Below, in pieces: positions 2,695 through 48,159 of a stretch of 64,000 bases of DNA. This stretch comes from an uncultured Armatimonadota bacterium (GTDB lineage Bacteria; Armatimonadota; Fimbriimonadia; Fimbriimonadales; Fimbriimonadaceae): NCBI GenBank assembly GCA_903927025.1, contig CAIYLG010000019.1, positions 61,795-125,794 on the forward strand, in the 5' to 3' direction. The notes under the pieces are model-generated. The model searched no databases. It had not been told where the DNA came from and was given only the letters and a program-made list of their open reading frames with translations. The position numbers were made by a program, and so were the translations under genes. Position 1 is the stretch's first letter. The number at the start of each line of letters is the position of its first letter.

Positions 2695-3639
2695 ATGAAA
2701 CTAGCACTCCTCAAGCTCGCCTCTTCGCTAGGGCGTACTTCTTCCCTCTCTCCTGTGTTGTTCGCATGCGCGACGGGTTGTGGTTCCCACCAGACGACCA
2801 AGGCTCCTGCCGTCAAAGCCGTCCCCAAACAAGAAGACACCGCTCCCAAGCGTGTTTCCAATCGCCCTGCCAATCTCATGGGTAGGGTTTATGTGGCCGA
2901 GTATCACCATATCCGCGCGGGTAGAGGGCCAATGTTCAGAACCCCGAAGCAGTTTCGGGCAGACCTGAATCTGTACTACAAGATGGGCTTTCGGCCGGTG
3001 TTGGCAAGCGAATACCTTGCCAATAAGATGCCGCTGGCACCCGGTGCCTCGCCCGTGGTGATGACATTTGACGACTCTAACCCCAGCCAGATTCAACTCA
3101 CCAAAACCGGTGAAGTCGATCCGAGGTCTGCAGTGGGCATCTGGATGGAGTTCGCAAAGACCCACCCGGACTTCCCAGTTCACGGGACATTCTTTGTGCT
3201 GCCGGGAAGCCTCTGGGGCAAAAAGAAACAGGCGAAGGAGAAGGTCAAGCTGCTCCTTTCAATGGGCTCAGAACTTGCGAATCACACAATGTCCCACCCG
3301 TTCCTCAACCATTGCTCAGACGCCAAGGTGAAATACGAAGTTGCCACCTGCAACTTCCGCCTTGATGCACTCGGTCAACCAGGCCCGCACACTTTGGCGG
3401 TGCCGTACGGCGAGTTCCCTCGGCACAGCTCGATCCTCAAAGGGTTCACCTACAAGGGTAAGCAAGTAGAGTTCAGCGGCGTCTTCATGGCCTGGGGCGG
3501 CCCCGCCCGGTCTCCCAATGACCCCAAGCTCAATCGCTACAAAATCCCCCGCATGATGGCCGTCAACGAAGAGGACAGCATCGAGAACTACATCAAGACA
3601 ATCAAGAAGGGCCACTACAAGCCCTACGTCCAGCCGTGA
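2695..3639 (+). CDS. Polysaccharide deacetylase lipoprotein, tandem paralogue
   Basis: A 314-residue paralogue of the preceding gene, colinear over almost its whole length: VAEYHHIR, MGFRPVLASEYLAN, then MTFDDSNPSQIQLT and ANHTMSHP for the NodB metal centre. Both proteins end in KPYVQP. The N-terminus has a hydrophobic stretch ending FACATGCGS, a good lipobox, so this copy is probably a lipoprotein while the first looks secreted. The two could therefore act on the same polymer at different places, membrane-anchored and free. The gene starts 21 bases after the first deacetylase and is followed by a hairpin-rich repeat. Confidence 0.85.
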   Translation: MKLALLKLASSLGRTSSLSPVLFACATGCGSHQTTKAPAVKAVPKQEDTAPKRVSNRPANLMGRVYVAEYHHIRAGRGPMFRTPKQFRADLNLYYKMGFRPVLASEYLANKMPLAPGASPVVMTFDDSNPSQIQLTKTGEVDPRSAVGIWMEFAKTHPDFPVHGTFFVLPGSLWGKKKQAKEKVKLLLSMGSELANHTMSHPFLNHCSDAKVKYEVATCNFRLDALGQPGPHTLAVPYGEFPRHSSILKGFTYKGKQVEFSGVFMAWGGPARSPNDPKLNRYKIPRMMAVNEEDSIENYIKTIKKGHYKPYVQP

Positions 3640-3679
3640 GCATGCTGTTGCTCATGTCGGGACGAAGGGCTTGCCGGGT

Positions 3680-3737
3680 GGGCGCGCGGACATTTATTCC
3701 GCATCAAGAAAGGGGTTTCAACCCCGTCGTTGTAGGT
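3680..3737 (+). repeat. Dispersed structured repeat, copy 1
   Basis: Starts with GGGCGCGCGGA, then a hairpin GCGGA-catttat-TCCGC and a second hairpin GGGGTT-tc-AACCCC, ending with GTTGTAGGT. The same order of elements recurs at 26479-26536, and the first hairpin recurs on the minus strand at 46319. It lies in the 236 bases between the second deacetylase and the convergent MBL gene. No gene is supported in that gap. Confidence 0.7.
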
Positions 3738-3875
3738 TCCTGGAGGTTCCTCCACGCGCTCCAACTGTGTCAGTTAGAGATGAACGGCGGCGGGGGTATG
3801 GCCGTCCTGGCCATGGGTTGCGCCCGCCAATCCGTTGGCATGGGTTAAGACGCAAACGTTGAGTGGAAAGCACCT

Positions 3876-4682
3876 TCAAATTTCGATGAGCATCCCATCG
3901 AAACCAGGCTCAATTCCGTGTGGCTGCAGGGTCTGCTCGAGGTCACAGTGGCGAGCATTGCCATGGTGGCTGTGGTGAGTGGTGACGACCTTGGAGGACG
4001 CTGTGAGCACACCAGTGGCTCTTAGGCGAGAAATCACGCTGAGGACGCCTTCAATGTTGAGATGCCCTTTGTAGGTTGACTCCACAAACCCGTCTGAGCA
4101 CTCGATAATCAGCAGATCCAGTGGATAGCGCTTCAAGAATTCAAACGTCTCTTCAGGCCAAATCCCTGTGTCGGTGGCGTACAGCAGGGTTTTGCCATCC
4201 GCCTGGACGATCAGGTTGTGGCAGTCCTCATCTTCGATATGGGTCGCCCGGATCGGCGTAATCAGGTACCGACCATGCTGAAACGACTCGAAGCTCTTGG
4301 TCTCCATGATCTCCAGCGGCCAATCTGGATATCGATCCAAAATCTCCCGGGAAACAACAGCGTTCGCGTAGATCGTGTAGGGCAGGTGATCTAGTTCAGT
4401 GAACGGATACAGCGCGTACTGCAGCTCGTTGACGGCGATATGGTCGTCGTCGCTGTGCGTGAACACGAGACCGGTCCAATCCCGAGCATCAAGTCCGGCC
4501 TGCTGAAGCTGGACGATGGTCTCGGGCGGCAGGTCAATCTTGAGACCGTCGTCAATAATCGCCGCCGTTCGACTTCGAACATCTTTCCCCCCGTTGGCAC
4601 GGGCATACCGGCTCACCATGTCGTCTCCGAAGAAACCGGGAATTCCGTCTGCCGCGCCTGTGCCAAGGAGTCGAATGTTCAT
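3876..4682 (-). CDS. MBL-fold metallo-hydrolase (PhnP-like)
   Basis: A 268-residue metallo-beta-lactamase fold protein. It begins with the family's first strand MNIRLLGTGAADGIPGF and has FTHSDDDHIAVNE near residue 75, a variant of the THxHxDH metal-binding motif with Asp in place of the middle His. ATHIEDEDCHN, LLYATDTGIWPEE and VTTHHSHHGNARHCD supply further probable ligands. Members related to PhnP and RNase Z hydrolyse phosphodiesters, but the substrate cannot be read from the sequence. The next gene in the same direction (DUF1015) ends only 7 bases upstream, so the two are probably co-transcribed. Confidence 0.75.
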   Translation of the reverse strand: MNIRLLGTGAADGIPGFFGDDMVSRYARANGGKDVRSRTAAIIDDGLKIDLPPETIVQLQQAGLDARDWTGLVFTHSDDDHIAVNELQYALYPFTELDHLPYTIYANAVVSREILDRYPDWPLEIMETKSFESFQHGRYLITPIRATHIEDEDCHNLIVQADGKTLLYATDTGIWPEETFEFLKRYPLDLLIIECSDGFVESTYKGHLNIEGVLSVISRLRATGVLTASSKVVTTHHSHHGNARHCDLEQTLQPHGIEPGFDGMLIEI

Positions 4683-4689
4683 GGCTCTG

Positions 4690-5967
4690 TCAAAAGTCGT
4701 TCAAGCTCCAGATTATGAGGCCGCTCAGGATTTTCGGATAATAGTAGGTACTTTTCTGGGGCATCTTTTCCCCACATTGAGCAATTTCCTGCATATCTGC
4801 CACCGACGGAGGGTTCATCAGGAACGCTGCAGCAGAACCAGAGTCCGGTGCGGCGACCGCTTCTTCCGCATCGCGGGTGTAGGCGATCTGCTCCAATCCC
4901 TTAATGCCCAGCAGCTTCTCGAGGATAACGCGATGAAGAACCGTCACGTCCAGGGCCTTTAGCGCGTCGCCCTCTTCTGCATCATTCATGGCGACGGCCG
5001 TACCTGGCACCTTTTCCACAAGGACATACCCCTTGTTTCCTGGGAGAGCAAGGCCAAACGCGCGAGAGCCAGAAGCGTGAATCTTCTCGATCTCCGCCAT
5101 GAGGCTTTCCCCAGAAACTTCCCTGAGGTCGTACACCGTTGAAAGCCGCTGGATCAGTTCATCTGGCCCAAACGGCAGAGTTTTCAGAATTCGATGGGTC
5201 GGCAGCAGGACGAGCCCAGGGTCCGAGATGGAGCAGAGCGCCATCATCAGATAGTCCTCAGGGATCAGGTCCGACTTCTCGCCCTGCGACTGTCGATACG
5301 CCAAAGCCGTTTCATATCGATGATGGCCGTCTGCGATCCAGACCTTTCGATCCGCGAGCAGGTCTACCAAAGCTTTGACGGCAGTTTCGTCGGTAATCGG
5401 CTCCAGTTCGTGATCGACTCCTTCATCGGAGTGGGTATCCACCTTCTCTGTCACAGGCGCGGCCAGAATCGCTTTCAGGACGTCGCTGTTGGCATCCTCA
5501 TAGAGGCCAAAGATGCACTCCAAGTGCGATCTCGTTGCCTCAAGGATGCGCATTCGATCCTCTTTGTGCTTCGGGAATGTCTGCTCGTGCGGCAACACGA
5601 TCCCCTTGTCGTACGGCTCTACTTTGATCAGTGCAATCATCGCCGTCCGCGAGAAAGCATCCGGGATTCCCGGAAGATGAAAGTGCTGGGTGTATCGATA
5701 GATGGCTGGCTTTGCCTCTGGCGATAGAGCTCCTTCCTGTCTCCATGCGGTCAGGAGGGCCGCGCTGCGTGCGTACTTGATGTACTTGCTGCGATCGTCT
5801 TCCTTCTGTTCAGGGAGCGTCAGGTGAACGACGTTGTGAGGGTTGCGGGCAGCATACTCGTCACGCTGAGCAGCCGAGAGAACATCGTACGGCGGCGCCG
5901 TAAGCGAATCAATGGGGCCAGCCCCAGAAGAAAACCGAAGCCCCTTAAAGGGCCGAATCGACGCCAT
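4690..5967 (-). CDS. DUF1015 family protein
   Basis: From ATG 5967 the protein has 425 residues, the normal size for DUF1015, and begins MASIRPFKGLRF, the typical family start. TAPPYDVLS, NPHNVVHLTLPE, VWIADGHHRYETAL and FLMNPPSVADM are family hallmarks. The ORF track extends the frame to 6348, but that part overlaps the divergent prenyltransferase gene and should be discarded. AGAGG sits just upstream of ATG 5967. The function of DUF1015 proteins is not established; the conserved GHHRYETA segment suggests an enzyme. It is 51 bases from the divergent GTG of the polyprenyl synthase. Confidence 0.85.
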   Translation of the reverse strand: MASIRPFKGLRFSSGAGPIDSLTAPPYDVLSAAQRDEYAARNPHNVVHLTLPEQKEDDRSKYIKYARSAALLTAWRQEGALSPEAKPAIYRYTQHFHLPGIPDAFSRTAMIALIKVEPYDKGIVLPHEQTFPKHKEDRMRILEATRSHLECIFGLYEDANSDVLKAILAAPVTEKVDTHSDEGVDHELEPITDETAVKALVDLLADRKVWIADGHHRYETALAYRQSQGEKSDLIPEDYLMMALCSISDPGLVLLPTHRILKTLPFGPDELIQRLSTVYDLREVSGESLMAEIEKIHASGSRAFGLALPGNKGYVLVEKVPGTAVAMNDAEEGDALKALDVTVLHRVILEKLLGIKGLEQIAYTRDAEEAVAAPDSGSAAAFLMNPPSVADMQEIAQCGEKMPQKSTYYYPKILSGLIIWSLNDF

Positions 5968-26415: not shown

Positions 26416-26478
26416 ATCAGCGCTAGAGTATCAGACTAGCGACTATTGGGCCAGATAGAGCGGTGGCATGGGGCCAAT

Positions 26479-26536
26479 GGGCGCGCGGTCATTTAGACCG
26501 CTTTTCAAAATGGGTTTCAACCCTGTTGTTGTAGGT
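26479..26536 (+). repeat. Dispersed structured repeat, copy 2
   Basis: Same order as copy 1: GGGCGCGCGGTC, hairpin GCGGTC-attta-GACCGC, hairpin GGGTT-tc-AACCC, then GTTGTAGGT. Against the minus-strand copy (GCGGAC/GTCCGC) the first stem differs by a paired change that keeps base pairing. A third hairpin (CACGCTGTGC...GCACAGCGTG) follows at about 26551-26582. It lies in the 196-base gap between the membrane-protein run and the pilin-like gene. Confidence 0.7.
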
Positions 26537-26611
26537 CTCCACAGGTTCAAGCACGCTGTGCCGACTTGTCAGCACAGCGTGGCGGAGGGCTGAGGCCATG
26601 AGGCTAGGGTG

Positions 26612-27199
26612 TTACGGCTTGGAGAAGAACTGCTTCACGGACCCATCGGCCATGAGCTGGTTGCTCACACCCCTCTTCAAGCCTGTGTGCCTTGGGGGCA
26701 TGGGCAGGTCCGGCGCACTTGAGTGGGCGTTTCGCTCAAGGTGAGCAGAGTCGGTAACCATCCATACAAATGCGTTGGCGCCAGACTGCTTTTTGCCACT
26801 CAGCGCATCATTGAAAGCGTAGCCGGACGAATCGACATTCTTCAGGCGCACGACCGGACACTGCAGGATGCGAGGAGATCGAAGATGGCCCTGGATTTCG
26901 TCCATCCACTTCGAGGCCAACGGCAACTTGCCGTCATTCTCGGTGGCGTACATGGACATGGCGGAACCGATACGCTGGAGGTTGTTCAGACAGCTCGTCT
27001 CACGACGCATCGTTAGCATCTGCCCGCGGTACTTGAGAAACACGGGGCCAATGAGGCCCCCAAAAATGAGGACAACCAAACATCCACCGCCTCCCAAGAT
27101 CATCAGGATAGTGGTCAGAGTGAGCTTTTGCTTTTCCTGCTTAAAGGAGCTCGACGGCCCCTCCATCGGTGGCGTCATCCGTGGAGGGGTGTCGGACAT
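26612..27199 (-). CDS. Pilin-like protein with DUF1559-type C-terminus
   Basis: A 195-residue protein. A Pro-rich cytoplasmic N-terminus is followed by one helix (ILMILGGGGCLVVLIFGGLIGPVFL). SCLNNLQRIGSAMSMYATENDGKLP follows the helix, exactly as in prepilins of the DUF1559/H-X9-DG group, and NQLMADGSVKQFF matches the group's C-terminal DG motif. The FTLIELLVV prepilin cleavage signal is absent, so it may be a fixed membrane protein with a pseudopilin ectodomain. It begins one base after the stop of the response regulator gene, so the two share a transcript. Confidence 0.65.
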   Translation of the reverse strand: MSDTPPRMTPPMEGPSSSFKQEKQKLTLTTILMILGGGGCLVVLIFGGLIGPVFLKYRGQMLTMRRETSCLNNLQRIGSAMSMYATENDGKLPLASKWMDEIQGHLRSPRILQCPVVRLKNVDSSGYAFNDALSGKKQSGANAFVWMVTDSAHLERNAHSSAPDLPMPPRHTGLKRGVSNQLMADGSVKQFFSKP

Positions 27200-43446: not shown

Positions 43447-45495
43447 ATGCCGAAACGCCCCATCAGAGCCGATGATCTACTGAAGATCGTTACCGTTGGA
43501 GACCCTCAGATCAGCCCAGACGGGTCGAAGGTTCTCTTCACCAAGAAGACGATCAACGAGAAGAACAAGTCCATTTCCAACCTGATGAGTGTGGACATGG
43601 AAGGTCGATTGACTCAGTGGACCCAAGGCGACGGTGGCAATGGCGGCGGAAGATGGTCGCCAGATGGCGGCACCATTGCTTTCATCAGCGGACGCGAGAA
43701 GCACGCGCAGATCTTCCTGATTCCCACCTCGGGCGGAGAAGCCCATAAGTTGACCTCGCTTCCCCAGGGATCGATTGGGGCGATGAAGTGGTCGCCAGAT
43801 GGCAAGTGGATCGCCTTCACCTACCGCGAGCAGATGGCAGGATTTACCGACAAAGCCAAGAAAGAGCGCGAAGAATCCGGAATGAGCCAGCCGCCGATCG
43901 AGATCGACGATATCTGGTACCGCCTAGATGGCGATGGCTACTTCGCCGGCCAGCGGTTCAAGGTCTATGCCATTGAGGTGGCCACGGGCAAATACGCTTC
44001 CGCCTCGATTGATGGCGAATTCGCACCCCTTTACGAAGGCAGCCCCTTGGGTGCCTATGCGTTTGACTGGTCCCCGAACTCAAAGGAACTCGCAATCTCC
44101 CACACGGCATGCAAGCGACCGTTTGTGGAGCCTCCAAACGACCAGATCTACCGAGTCTCGATGGACGGGCAGGCATGGAAGGTAGAAGGTTTGCCGAAGG
44201 GAGAAAAGGGCAACGTGCTCTGGTCTCCCGATGGAACCAAACTGGCCTACGCGGGCGACGTTGACGAGTCGGACCCATGGGGTACGCGCAATACAAAGCT
44301 TTATGTCGTCTCCGCGGACGGAGGCACGCCAATCGACCTGACGGGTCACCAAGATTACGACCTCGATGTTGCCACCCTAAGCGACACCAAGGACGCCGGG
44401 TTTGGCGCAACCATGTTCTGGAAGCCAGACGGAAGCGGCCTGTTTGTTCAAATCGGCTGGCACGGTGAAGTTCAGCTCGGATTTGTGGGACTGGACAGCA
44501 AGGTCGAACTGATCACAGAAGGTCTACACAGCATCGGGGTCGGCAACCTCAGCCACGACGGCACCAAGATCGGAGCCACCTTTGGTCACGCGACGATGCT
44601 GCCGGAAGTCGCGGTTCTGGAACCCGAACTGGGCACCGGACGAATGGCTCCAAAGGTCCTGACTCACCTCAACGAGGAATTCCACAATGAGATCAAGCTC
44701 AGCGAGCCCGAGGAGTTCTGGGTGGAATCCACCGACGGCATTCAGGTTCACGGCTGGGTGATGAAGCCAATTGGCTATCTGCCACCCCGGCGCTATCCTG
44801 CCCTGCTGGAGATTCATGGTGGGCCTCACACACAGTACGGATGGGCCTTCTTCCACGAATTCCAGCTTCTGGCTGCGGCTGGCTATGTGGTGGTGTTCAC
44901 CAATCCGAGAGGTTCAAAGGGGTACGGCGAAGATTTCTGCGGAGCGATCCGTGGAGATTGGGGCAACAAGGACTGGGACGACGTGCAGGCCGTCACTCGA
45001 TGGATGCAGCATCAGCCCTACATCCACCCCGGCCAGATGGGCGTCCTCGGCGGCTCTTACGGCGGGTACATGACGAACTGGGTCATCGGCCATACCCATG
45101 AGTTCAGTGCCGCTGTCACCGATCGCTGCGTTTCAAACATGGTATCCATGGCTGGCAACAGCGATTTCCCATTCAACAAGAATGGCTATTTCAAGGGCGT
45201 CGCTTGGGGCTCGCTGGAAGAGATCAAAGAGCTTTGGCGACAGTCGCCGATTGCCTACTTTGAGAATGTAAAGACTCCAACCCTCGTGATCCACAGCGAA
45301 GGCGACCTCCGCTGCAACATCGAACAGAGTGAGCAGGTGTTCACCGCACTTCAGCAGCAGGGGATTGAGTCACGGTTTGTGCGATATCCCTCCTTTACCT
45401 CCCACGGTATGTCTCGATCTGGACCGGCGGATTTGCGGCTCCACCGCCTCAACGAAATCGTGACCTGGATGGATCGATTCCTTAAAGTGAAATGA
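43447..45495 (+). CDS. S9 family acylaminoacyl-peptidase-like serine peptidase
   Basis: A 682-residue prolyl oligopeptidase family protein. The N-terminal half is a beta-propeller with TolB-like blades (DPQISPDGSKVLFTK, GGRWSPDGGTIAFIS, GAMKWSPDGKWIAF, NVLWSPDGTKLAYAG). The C-terminal alpha/beta hydrolase has HGGPHTQYGWAF for the oxyanion region, the nucleophile Ser in GGSYGGYMTNW near residue 536, Asp in VIHSEGDLRCN and His in SFTSHGMSRSG near 653. It cleaves short, possibly N-acylated, peptides. No signal peptide is seen. The next gene begins in its stop (ATGA). Confidence 0.9.
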   Translation: MPKRPIRADDLLKIVTVGDPQISPDGSKVLFTKKTINEKNKSISNLMSVDMEGRLTQWTQGDGGNGGGRWSPDGGTIAFISGREKHAQIFLIPTSGGEAHKLTSLPQGSIGAMKWSPDGKWIAFTYREQMAGFTDKAKKEREESGMSQPPIEIDDIWYRLDGDGYFAGQRFKVYAIEVATGKYASASIDGEFAPLYEGSPLGAYAFDWSPNSKELAISHTACKRPFVEPPNDQIYRVSMDGQAWKVEGLPKGEKGNVLWSPDGTKLAYAGDVDESDPWGTRNTKLYVVSADGGTPIDLTGHQDYDLDVATLSDTKDAGFGATMFWKPDGSGLFVQIGWHGEVQLGFVGLDSKVELITEGLHSIGVGNLSHDGTKIGATFGHATMLPEVAVLEPELGTGRMAPKVLTHLNEEFHNEIKLSEPEEFWVESTDGIQVHGWVMKPIGYLPPRRYPALLEIHGGPHTQYGWAFFHEFQLLAAAGYVVVFTNPRGSKGYGEDFCGAIRGDWGNKDWDDVQAVTRWMQHQPYIHPGQMGVLGGSYGGYMTNWVIGHTHEFSAAVTDRCVSNMVSMAGNSDFPFNKNGYFKGVAWGSLEEIKELWRQSPIAYFENVKTPTLVIHSEGDLRCNIEQSEQVFTALQQQGIESRFVRYPSFTSHGMSRSGPADLRLHRLNEIVTWMDRFLKVK

Positions 45496-46319
45496 AGGCA
45501 CGTCTCAATCGCCTGATGGGGTCGGACGGCAAGTGCTTTGACGTCGCCATTGATCACGGCTTCTTCAACGAGCCGTCCTTCCTGGCGGGGATTGAGGACA
45601 TTCGCCCCGCCATTCAGACGGTTATTTCTGCGGCTCCCGACGCGATCCAGCTTCCGCCGGGAACCGCGCCCCTCCTTCAGGCACTGCCCGGAAAGTCGAA
45701 GCCTTCGCTCGTTCTAAGAACGGACGTGGCCAACGTCTACGGCAAAATGCTTCCCCGCCATCTCTTCAGCAGGATGATTGAGGATCCGGTGGGTCAGGCA
45801 GTCCGTCTCGACGCCGCATGCGTCGTGGTGAATCTCCTCCTGTTGCCGAATCAGCCTGATCTCCACGAGGCGTGTATCGACAATATCTGCCGCCTCAAAC
45901 CGCTGTGCAATCAGGCCGGGATGCCGCTGATGGTCGAGCCCCTCGTCATGCAGTCGAACGAGAAGGCGGGCGGCTACATGGTGGACGGTGATCTGAACAA
46001 GATCCTTCCCCTCGTTCGCCAGGCGGTCGAACTTGGAGCAGACGTCATCAAGGCCGACCCATGCGACGATGTGTCGCACTATCACAAAGTGATTGAGGTC
46101 GCCAGCGGAATCCCCGTCCTCGTGCGAGGCGGCGGCAAAGCCACCGACGAAGAGATTCTAAAGCGAACCTTCGACCTCATGAAGCAAGGTGCCAGCGGCA
46201 TCGTCTACGGCAGAAATGTCATCCAGCACCCATCGCCCGACCGAATGACCCGAGCCCTAATGGCCATCGTCCACGAGGAAGCCAGCGTCACCGAAGCCTG
46301 GTGCATCCTAAACGGCTAG
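45492..46319 (+). CDS. DeoC/FbaB/LsrF-like class I aldolase
   Basis: A 275-residue TIM-barrel aldolase. CFDVAIDHGFFNEPS resembles the start of DhnA-type class I aldolases. The Schiff-base Lys is in ELGADVIKADPCDDVS near residue 183, and VLVRGGGKATDEEIL plus ASGIVYGRNVIQHPSP form the phosphate site. It should make or split a carbon-carbon bond in a phosphorylated sugar, such as fructose 1,6-bisphosphate. The exact substrate is open. Its ATG overlaps the peptidase stop in ATGA, so the two are translationally coupled despite no metabolic link. Confidence 0.82.
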   Translation: MKARLNRLMGSDGKCFDVAIDHGFFNEPSFLAGIEDIRPAIQTVISAAPDAIQLPPGTAPLLQALPGKSKPSLVLRTDVANVYGKMLPRHLFSRMIEDPVGQAVRLDAACVVVNLLLLPNQPDLHEACIDNICRLKPLCNQAGMPLMVEPLVMQSNEKAGGYMVDGDLNKILPLVRQAVELGADVIKADPCDDVSHYHKVIEVASGIPVLVRGGGKATDEEILKRTFDLMKQGASGIVYGRNVIQHPSPDRMTRALMAIVHEEASVTEAWCILNG

Positions 46320-46341
46320 CGGACTAAATGTCCGCGCGCCC
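46319..46341 (-). repeat. Dispersed structured repeat, minus-strand copy (first hairpin)
   Basis: On the minus strand: GGGCGCGCGGACATTTAGTCC, with hairpin GCGGAC-attta-GTCCGC. It starts at the stop codon of the aldolase gene and lies in the 28-base gap to the convergent M48 gene. The second hairpin of the other copies is absent, so this is a short form that may act as a terminator. Confidence 0.7.
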
Positions 46342-46347
46342 GCATGT

Positions 46348-48159
46348 CTAAATCGGCAGGCCTCGCAACATCACGACCGCGGTGACGCACCCCGCGAGAA
46401 GCACCAGGTTGCCGATGACGGCCCACACGAAGTAATTCGAGTTCACCCGCTCGCCGGTATCCAGCACGTCGAAGTGGTGGATCTCGATGTAGGGAGCGTT
46501 GAATCGTCGATACCAGCCATAGACCCGTACCCTTTTGCCTACGTATCGGTCGGCGGTGGTGAGACCAAACCACAGCTTCATGATGCCAAGCGGAGTTCGG
46601 TAAAGGCATGCAAGGAACCCAGTATCGTCTTGAACGATGAAGTCGCTGGCCCATGCGATGCCCGGGGAAATCCGTCCCGTGAACGTCCCCTCGATTGCGG
46701 TCGGAATCGGATTCACGTGCGAAACCTCCACCTCGCCAAGCAAACGGATGACCTTGCTGGGTTTGAATTCTCCCATATAGCTGAAGATAAGCACGAAGAG
46801 TCGGCCCGCCGAAAACCCAGCGAGGGGCATGAAGATTTGTGAGAGGTCAAACCGCTTCTGGCTAAAGAAGAAGGATCCCGCTACGGCCCCGCCGATCACC
46901 GCACCCAACCAAGGAGAACTCACCAGAAGGAGGTCTCGAGCAAATCCGTTGTACTTCGCAGGCTTGATCTTACTGAAGTCGAAAGCGTCTGGCTGATTGA
47001 AGAGTCGGTTCAACTTTTGAAGGGCCTTGATTCTCAGTGCAGTCAGCGGGTGAGTCGAGAACACCTCGCCGATCTTTCCCCAAGGATTGAACAGTTCCCA
47101 CCTGGCGGCAGTAGTGAATGTGTCCGGGTTGGCCAGACCATCCGCGCCCGACCAGGCGACGGCGGCGCGCATCGACGACACGCCCATCACGCCAAACGCT
47201 CCAAGCTGAGCCGCCGAGAACGCTTCCTTCTTCTTGGGCTGCGGTTTGGTTGCAGCCGTCCCTGCAGCGCCTTTGGGAGCAATGGCACCTGCCGCAATCG
47301 CGTGGGCATTATCGTAGCGAGCGGATTCGAGCATCGCTCTCTGTTTCGCAACCGTGGCGTCGTCATAGGAGTACGGGCTCGCGTTTGCAGGCGGAGGAGC
47401 CTGAGTGGTCGGTCGCACCTGGCCCGATATTGGCACTGTTGCGCCCCCAACCGTTTGGGTCTTCGCCAAACCATAGGCGATCTTGACGAGGGCGTAGGAG
47501 AGATGGTTTGGGTTGCCAGTGATCTGTGCAGACGAGTAGTCCGCCATGTATTCCCGAATACGAGAAAGCAGCAGCGAAGCGTAATAGCTGGCCCAGTAGG
47601 CAACATAGGCGGCGAGCACGATGTACCAGTTGTTGTTGCGGCTGGACGTACGTGAGGTGTAGTAGAGCGTCCAGAGGAACAGCACGAGGGCTTGAACCAT
47701 CGTCATCACCACGAAGTCGCCGTTTCGGATATGCCCCAGCTCATGGGCTACGACCGCTCGGAGTTCGTCTTCCGAGAGCACTTCGATGAGCCCCCGCGTC
47801 ACCACAACCCTCGCGTCGTAGGCGCCATGACCGTAAGTAAAGGCGTTCGGAGCAGCCTCTTCGATGATTCCAATTCGCGGTTTGGCAATTTTGAACGTCC
47901 CGCAAGCATTCGAGAGCCACACATCCGACCCCGATCCAAGCTCTTCTGGAGAAGTCCACCGGACTTTCACGATGTGATCGATGATCATCGGGCCTAGGCA
48001 GTACTGCAGCACCACGACACCCACTGCAAGCCCACCGGTAAGGCCCATCGTGATGCCGACCGGTAGGTGAAGCTTCAGCAGTACCAAGAACCCAATCGCA
48101 AATACGAGCCCCAAAATGGAAACGATCACCAGCATCGAAGCTCCGAGAAGTTTCGTCAT
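46348..48159 (-). CDS. M48 family (HtpX-like) membrane metalloprotease with extra C-terminal domain
   Basis: A 603-residue protein. Two helices open it (residues 5-60), then the M48 zinc motif AVVAHELGHIRNGDFV near residue 138 and LSRIREYMADYSSAQITGN, whose Glu is the third ligand. A low-complexity insert follows (APPPANASPYSY, APKGAAGTAATKPQPKKK), then THPLTALRIKAL. More membrane helices lie near 430-470. The last ~130 residues are unusual for HtpX: FIVQDDTGFLACLYRTP and ADRYVGKRVRVYGWYRRFN look like an OB-fold-type beta domain, ahead of a final helix. HtpX enzymes degrade damaged membrane proteins. Confidence 0.85.
   Translation of the reverse strand: MTKLLGASMLVIVSILGLVFAIGFLVLLKLHLPVGITMGLTGGLAVGVVVLQYCLGPMIIDHIVKVRWTSPEELGSGSDVWLSNACGTFKIAKPRIGIIEEAAPNAFTYGHGAYDARVVVTRGLIEVLSEDELRAVVAHELGHIRNGDFVVMTMVQALVLFLWTLYYTSRTSSRNNNWYIVLAAYVAYWASYYASLLLSRIREYMADYSSAQITGNPNHLSYALVKIAYGLAKTQTVGGATVPISGQVRPTTQAPPPANASPYSYDDATVAKQRAMLESARYDNAHAIAAGAIAPKGAAGTAATKPQPKKKEAFSAAQLGAFGVMGVSSMRAAVAWSGADGLANPDTFTTAARWELFNPWGKIGEVFSTHPLTALRIKALQKLNRLFNQPDAFDFSKIKPAKYNGFARDLLLVSSPWLGAVIGGAVAGSFFFSQKRFDLSQIFMPLAGFSAGRLFVLIFSYMGEFKPSKVIRLLGEVEVSHVNPIPTAIEGTFTGRISPGIAWASDFIVQDDTGFLACLYRTPLGIMKLWFGLTTADRYVGKRVRVYGWYRRFNAPYIEIHHFDVLDTGERVNSNYFVWAVIGNLVLLAGCVTAVVMLRGLPI

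Follow-up and report, generated by a model that had tools for sequence, protein, structure and literature searches.

A dispersed mosaic element with REP-like hairpin ends, probably of RAYT type, in a genome of the Fimbriimonadaceae (Armatimonadota)

The hairpin at position 26479 is the 5' end of a non-coding mosaic element of about 155 bp. Copies of this element are present in the window (the whole 64-kb stretch of DNA analyzed, which is part of contig C19) and elsewhere in the same genome, a 5.25-Mb assembly of 66 contigs and 98.4% completeness whose host belongs to the Fimbriimonadaceae (Armatimonadota). This placement comes from adenylate kinase, with best hits of 87% and 77% to MAGs of the Armatimonadetes. 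The feature is probably the left terminus of a non-autonomous element of the RAYT type, similar to BIMEs and REPINs, and the element most likely represents a new family within a kind of bacterial repeat that is already known.

An exact-match scan of the window found GGGCGCGCGG three times, at 3680 (+), 26479 (+) and 46341-46332 (-), against 0.30 matches expected, and three or more matches were obtained in 1 of 100 shuffles. The scan bore out the preliminary description, in which this sequence leads into a hairpin at three sites, although the minus-strand copy begins at 46341 and the 46319 given for it is its far end. The stem change affecting both arms was recovered between GCGGTC/GACCGC (26485-26501) and GCGGAC/GTCCGC (46335-46319); however, the 3680 copy carries GCGGAC/TTCCGC, which is uncompensated. 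The second hairpin (H2), described as kept, was found at 3712-3725 and, with one pair fewer, at 26512-26523, but is missing from the 46341 copy. Copy 1 (Table 1) lies between the 3' ends of the convergent genes 2695-3639 (+) and 3876-4682 (-), the gene 26612-27199 (-) has its 3' end 11 bp beyond the end of copy 2, and copy 3 takes up most of the 28 bp that separate the stop codons of two convergent genes, 45492-46319 (+) and 46348-48159 (-).

Table 1. Element copies in the window, consensus parts of the family, and RAYT genes of the host genome.
Feature	Position	Strand	Description
Copy 1	3677..3762	+	5' REP, H2 and conserved GTAGGTT box; decayed past the box
Copy 1, 5' REP	3680..3702	+	stem GCGGAC/TTCCGC, innermost pair C/T broken
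Copy 1, H2	3712..3725	+	GGGGTTTCAACCCC
Copy 2 (mosaic element)	26476..26600	+	5' REP, H2, H3 and degenerate H4; without 3' REP
Copy 2, 5' REP	26479..26501	+	GGGCGC, then stem GCGGTC, loop ATTTA, stem GACCGC
Copy 2, H2	26512..26523	+	GGGTTTCAACCC; T/T in place of the outermost G-C pair seen in the family
Copy 2, H3	26552..26581	+	CACGCTGTGCCGACTTGTCAGCACAGCGTG; long hairpin
Copy 3 (solo 5' REP)	46319..46341	-	GGGCGCGCGGACATTTAGTCCGC; without H2
Consensus 5' REP			RATGGGCGCGCGGGC-ATTTA-GCCCGC
Consensus H2			GGGGTTTCAACCCC
Conserved box after H2			GTTGTTGTAGGTTCCCGCAGGTT
Consensus H3			CACGCGATCCCGACAAGTCGGGACGGCGTG
Consensus H4			GGCGCAGGGCTGAAGCCCTGGCC
Inverted 3' REP			GCAGACTGAAGTTCTGCGCTCCA; other strand TGGAGCGCAGAACTTCAGTCTGC
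RAYT 1	C58:4403-5092	-	above the NF047646 cut-off
RAYT 2	C66:26623-27189		above the NF047646 cut-off

The full unit shows five hairpins in the order 5' REP, H2, H3, H4 and inverted 3' REP, with a spacer of about 105 bp between the REPs that holds the three inner hairpins; the two REPs of one unit differ in sequence. A search of the genome for the 21-nt hairpin pattern, allowing up to 3 mismatches, gave 26 matches, whereas the reversed control gave 1; judged by their flanks, five of these matches are apparently noise. The consensus of the aligned copies gave 31 blast matches below an E-value of 1e-6. The covariance model built from collected genome copies, as the preliminary description had proposed, spans 70 positions and gave 35 matches at E≤0.01, all in the host genome; since some elements are matched at both ends, separate insertions are slightly fewer. 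The inverted 3' REP is kept in about ten copies. Many others are truncated and lack the 3' REP or the spacer hairpins, and solo ends are common. When a full-length copy was folded as single-stranded DNA its two ends paired (z = -2.45), and in the copy at C32:37073-37229 the inverted ends are nearly identical. Neither the covariance model nor blastn found a match in 40 relatives, 19 of them of the same genus, and scans of GTDB and viral contigs for exact matches to a pattern of the core also gave none; outside homologues of the full element were therefore not available for comparison.

The structure of the element is kept, and the strongest compensation is in H3, a hairpin that did not figure in the preliminary description. 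Double changes were found at 6 of its 13 pairs, in several different copies, with 10 double-change cells against 3.6 in shuffles and 82.5% of cells paired against 75.2%; in copy 2, several H3 pairs are compensated in relation to the family consensus. H2 shows no double changes. In the hairpin of the 5' REP (H1), all nine double changes fall on one pair (columns 14/23, which among 24 copies read G-C in 13, A-T in seven and T-A in two), a count reached in 0 of 500 shuffles, and each of the other five pairs is broken in 1-5 of the 24 copies and never compensated. G-U replacements account for about a fifth of the one-sided changes in H1 (5 of 23), so there is no sign of selection at the RNA level.

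This pattern bears on the earlier proposal that the paired changes reflect selection for structure, which is reasonable and which H3 makes much better, although the H1 swap could equally come from a few amplified subfamilies. Uncompensated stem mutations, named at the outset as evidence against that proposal, do occur in H1, the 3680 copy included; in H3 the changes are compensated at six pairs. A purely mutational origin of the covariation, by template switching at quasi-palindromes or by amplification of a few master copies, is on balance doubtful. In its favor, the H1 double changes are confined to a single pair that takes three states, a pattern that a few amplified subfamilies would be expected to produce, and uncompensated mismatches are frequent in the same stem; however, subfamily structure alone explains poorly the double changes at six H3 pairs in several copies, and template switching could be their source. 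Such an origin concerns the cause of the covariation and not the identity of the element, and is compatible with a RAYT-type repeat.

The host genome contains four genes with a Y1_Tnp domain (one in C41, two in C58 and one in C66), and two of them pass the NCBIfam NF047646 cut-off for REP-associated tyrosine transposases, with scores of 82.1 and 92.7 against a cut-off of 80 (Table 1). Both RAYT genes are bordered by inverted REPs with an architecture similar to that of the window 5' REP. The C58 gene lies between inverted arms, AACCAAAGGAGTGCGGGATTTATCACGC..., and the hairpin of these arms is also dispersed (27 copies against 0 in controls), and the C66 gene sits among inverted GGGAACGCTGGCTTCAGCC units. 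At C58, L062:4237-5154 forms a complete REPtron-like unit in which the RAYT gene, given there as 4400-5092 (-), stands between 52-nt inverted arms with the hairpin GGAGTGCGGGATTTATCACGC. The protein L062:5165-5983, with a pilin-like N-terminal signal, adjoins this unit; the gene 26612-27199 (-) beside copy 2, which has a weak, sub-threshold match to DUF1559 (SBP_bac_10), may be of the same class. At C66, L063:6273-7342 shows palindromic units of about 125 bp with GGGAACGCTGGCTTCAGCC ends, two upstream and one downstream of the RAYT gene, in a REPIN-RAYT arrangement. The other two Y1_Tnp genes (C41 and C58:14261) were rejected as RAYTs since the ordinary IS200 model outscores the RAYT model, and their flanks show no resemblance to the window 5' REP. 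The gene at C41 (L061:3440-4918) is of IS200 type and lies amid near-identical repeats of about 100 bp with CTACCCCGGCAGGGGTTGTGCAAACTAGCCACGCGGTTGGCGCC in both orientations; L062:14046-14819 in C58 is an IS200-like element whose transposase gene is bordered by 60-nt and 29-nt inverted repeats.

Inverted flanking repeats were found at 16 of the 21 RAYT loci with full flanks in the host and its genus, the threshold being the highest score among 120 mismatched-locus controls. The flanking repeats in the genus include CGGAGCGCGGACGTCCCGTCCGC (L106) and TGGGAGCGCCGGCATCTTGCCGGC (G009 L107), the latter locus falling below the threshold because the matched gene region covers part of its repeat. At L106 of a sister species (G007:C1:31781), the two RAYT-flanking REPs differ by a compensated stem change, GCGGACGTCCCGTCCGC and GCGGGCGTCTCGCCCGC. 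The 5' REP of the window family resembles several RAYT-flanking REPs beyond palindrome-preserving shuffles, with modest p-values of 0.0005-0.0125 that are indicative only, since the sequences compared (about 24 nt) were picked after inspection. No RAYT flanked by exactly the window-family REP was found among the four Y1_Tnp loci of the 98.4% complete assembly or among the genus RAYT loci examined. The matching RAYT may have been lost from an ageing family or may lie in an assembly gap; alternatively, this REP may be acted on by one of the two RAYTs of the genome.

A length of about 155 bp, imperfect terminal inverted repeats and the lack of coding capacity, together with the nearly identical inverted ends of the C32 copy, would also suit a MITE, that is, a deletion derivative of a DDE transposon with terminal inverted repeats of about 23 bp that duplicates its target. 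This identity is unlikely: the ends are themselves the hairpins, as in substrates of Y1 transposases, solo ends are common, an autonomous element with these ends was not found, and the same genome holds RAYT-flanking REPs of the same design. Furthermore, no target-site duplication was seen at the inferred boundaries of L027 and L028, the two full copies whose boundaries could both be reliably placed (few copies are full; L029, L033, L039 and L049, whose automatically assigned boundaries were wrong, and L032, whose boundaries were uncertain, were left out of this check).

The distribution of the copies was analyzed in relation to genes predicted from codon usage by a gene finder that had been trained on the window. 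Thirty-two of 33 copies are intergenic, and the remaining one overlaps the 3' end of a gene. The 30 intergenic copies that could be classified comprise 14 between convergent genes, 12 between co-directional genes and four between divergent genes. Convergent sites are thus enriched (14/30 copies in relation to 9/68 baseline gaps of at least 20 bp; Fisher p = 0.0006), and the clustering at gene 3' ends that the preliminary description had put forward as a check was observed. REPs likewise favor unidirectional and convergent gaps (Di Nocera et al. 2013, PMC3733652). The bias may come from purifying selection against insertions elsewhere, and retention of copies as terminators would also predict it. 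It is quite improbable that the element is a host-useful RNA structure, either a bidirectional intrinsic terminator or a stabilizer of mRNA 3' ends at convergent genes. The strong convergent bias, the covariation of the hairpins and TTTT after H1 in 9 of 24 copies speak for it, as does the H2 of copy 1, terminator-like on the minus strand only (3725-3712, followed by TTTCT, TTTCTTGATG). Nevertheless, most copies lack TTTT after H1, neither the 26479 copy nor the 46341 copy has a terminator-like site, some copies have divergent genes on either side, and G-U replacements are few among the one-sided H1 changes. In addition, the element is missing from all 40 relatives, which argues against a conserved host function. 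The earlier suggestion of a terminator therefore holds as a possibility for the minority of copies with TTTT and not as a general role; at some copies, terminator activity may arise secondarily. A small RNA was also proposed at first, and compensatory changes in several conserved hairpins, together with the conservation of a GTTGTTGTAGGTTCCCGCAGG box, would suit a family of riboswitch-like leaders or small regulatory RNAs. Such a family is most improbable, given that a tRNA was the only Rfam match at or above the gathering score in the whole window, no promoter-like site lies beside the window copies, G-U intermediates are not in excess, and the copies are variously truncated, joined to other repeats and located less in leaders than at the 3' ends of genes.

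The third identity first proposed, a REP-type element, agrees with the dispersed and intergenic copies, the convergent-end bias, the inverted doublets and the RAYT genes flanked by look-alike REPs. The family shows the features by which REPs and REPINs or BIMEs are broadly defined: a dispersed palindrome, inverted REPs with a hairpin spacer, and flanks of the same class at RAYT genes. The heads of its 5' REPs are mostly ATGGG; GTGG appears in about 7 of 24 copies, several nucleotides away from the 6-bp stem, and GT[AG]G at the stem foot or within 2 nt of it, by which the canonical GTAG superfamily is defined, was not found. The TIRtron motif GGGGWSAS is also absent from the 5' REP consensus. 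As the broad features of RAYT-associated REPs and BIMEs are present but these two motifs are not, the family is classified as an atypical RAYT-type repeat family.

Among described systems, the closest are the REPINs and BIMEs mobilized by RAYT/TnpA_REP (P. fluorescens SBW25, PMC3116915, and the BIMEs of E. coli), which share with the present family inverted pairs of short hairpin REPs, intergenic dispersal, solo REPs that are likely to be remnants, spacer hairpins with compensatory changes and REP-flanked RAYT genes in the same genome. In REPINs, compensatory changes are described as common in the spacers, and REP singlets are regarded as remnants (PMC3116915). The present family differs in its longer spacer (about 105 bp) with three conserved hairpins, its unlike REPs within one unit, its low copy number (about 35), its head (mostly ATGGG[CA]GC instead of GT[AG]G) and the exactly matching RAYT not having been found. 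TIRtrons (TIRYT, PMC3733652) and atypical RAYT-linked repeats (PMC6006769) are similarly non-GTAG. In these systems, tyrosine (Y1) transposase genes lie between long inverted repeats that lack GTAG, some of which are self-complementary and dispersed as small families (PMC3733652, and PMC6006769 for atypical subclasses). The TIR consensus GGGGWSAS is missing here from the 5' REP consensus; other TIRs are noted to be without it as well (PMC3733652). Closer at hand, the REPs of the C58 and C66 RAYTs and of sister-species RAYTs (such as TGGGAGCGCCGGCATCTTGCCGGC) show, as here, a G-rich head and a short GC-rich stem-loop, with heads GGAGTGC, GGGAACGC and TGGGAGCG. They are inverted around the gene, and the C58 REP is also dispersed in the genome; however, the letters of stem and loop differ from those of the window family, and the C58 REP has an internal stem mismatch where the window-family REP shows a perfect 6-bp stem in most copies.

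A second dispersed family was found in the same genome, with a palindromic core of about 190 bp, TAATGCCATCCAGTTTGAGA...TCTCAAACTGGATGGCATTA (33 matches against 0 in controls). At its loci (L225, G000:C7:45395-45584; L222; L217-L228) several different REP-like end hairpins cap the core. The window-family 5' REP and other REP-like ends, among them that of the C66 RAYT (GAACGCTGGCTTCAGCC), are joined to this unrelated core, and several of the 33 matches form inverted pairs 130-190 bp apart. The same hairpins with TGGG[AC]GC heads appear to cap at least two unrelated structured cores, the H2/H3 core of about 105 bp and the palindromic core of about 190 bp. The segment formed by H4 and the 3' REP is also found separate from the rest of the element. 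This mosaic joining of REP ends is a BIME-like behavior, and P. putida and P. fluorescens are described as containing similar mosaics, in which degenerate REPs are combined with unrelated stem-loops (PMC3733652).

According to the mechanism we propose, the two end hairpins with their G-rich 5' heads would fold when the DNA becomes single-stranded, and the folded ends would be cut and rejoined in trans by a chromosomal Y1/HuH transposase of the RAYT class. Copies would in this way spread to intergenic sites without target-site duplication, and insertions would persist mainly where they are harmless, at gene 3' ends. Action of a RAYT on single-stranded REPs has been shown biochemically for other REPs (PMC8266576). 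On this best reading, the element would be kept because its single-stranded hairpins are the substrate of the transposase.

The paired base changes of the window thus sit in the hairpins of a probable mobile repeat, and such changes alone are no evidence for a regulatory RNA. The two RAYT surveys consulted (PMC3733652, PMC6006769) do not mention the Armatimonadota, and none of the papers found reports this repeat family from the phylum; the family described here extends repeats of the REP-RAYT type to it. We suggest, tentatively, that the Fimbriimonadaceae hold a non-GTAG branch of the REP-RAYT system whose REP termini serve as interchangeable ends and yield species-specific mosaic repeats. 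If the ends are interchangeable between cores, the transposase would mobilize anything that lies between two end hairpins, and the apparent swapping of end hairpins makes the substrate requirements of RAYTs testable.
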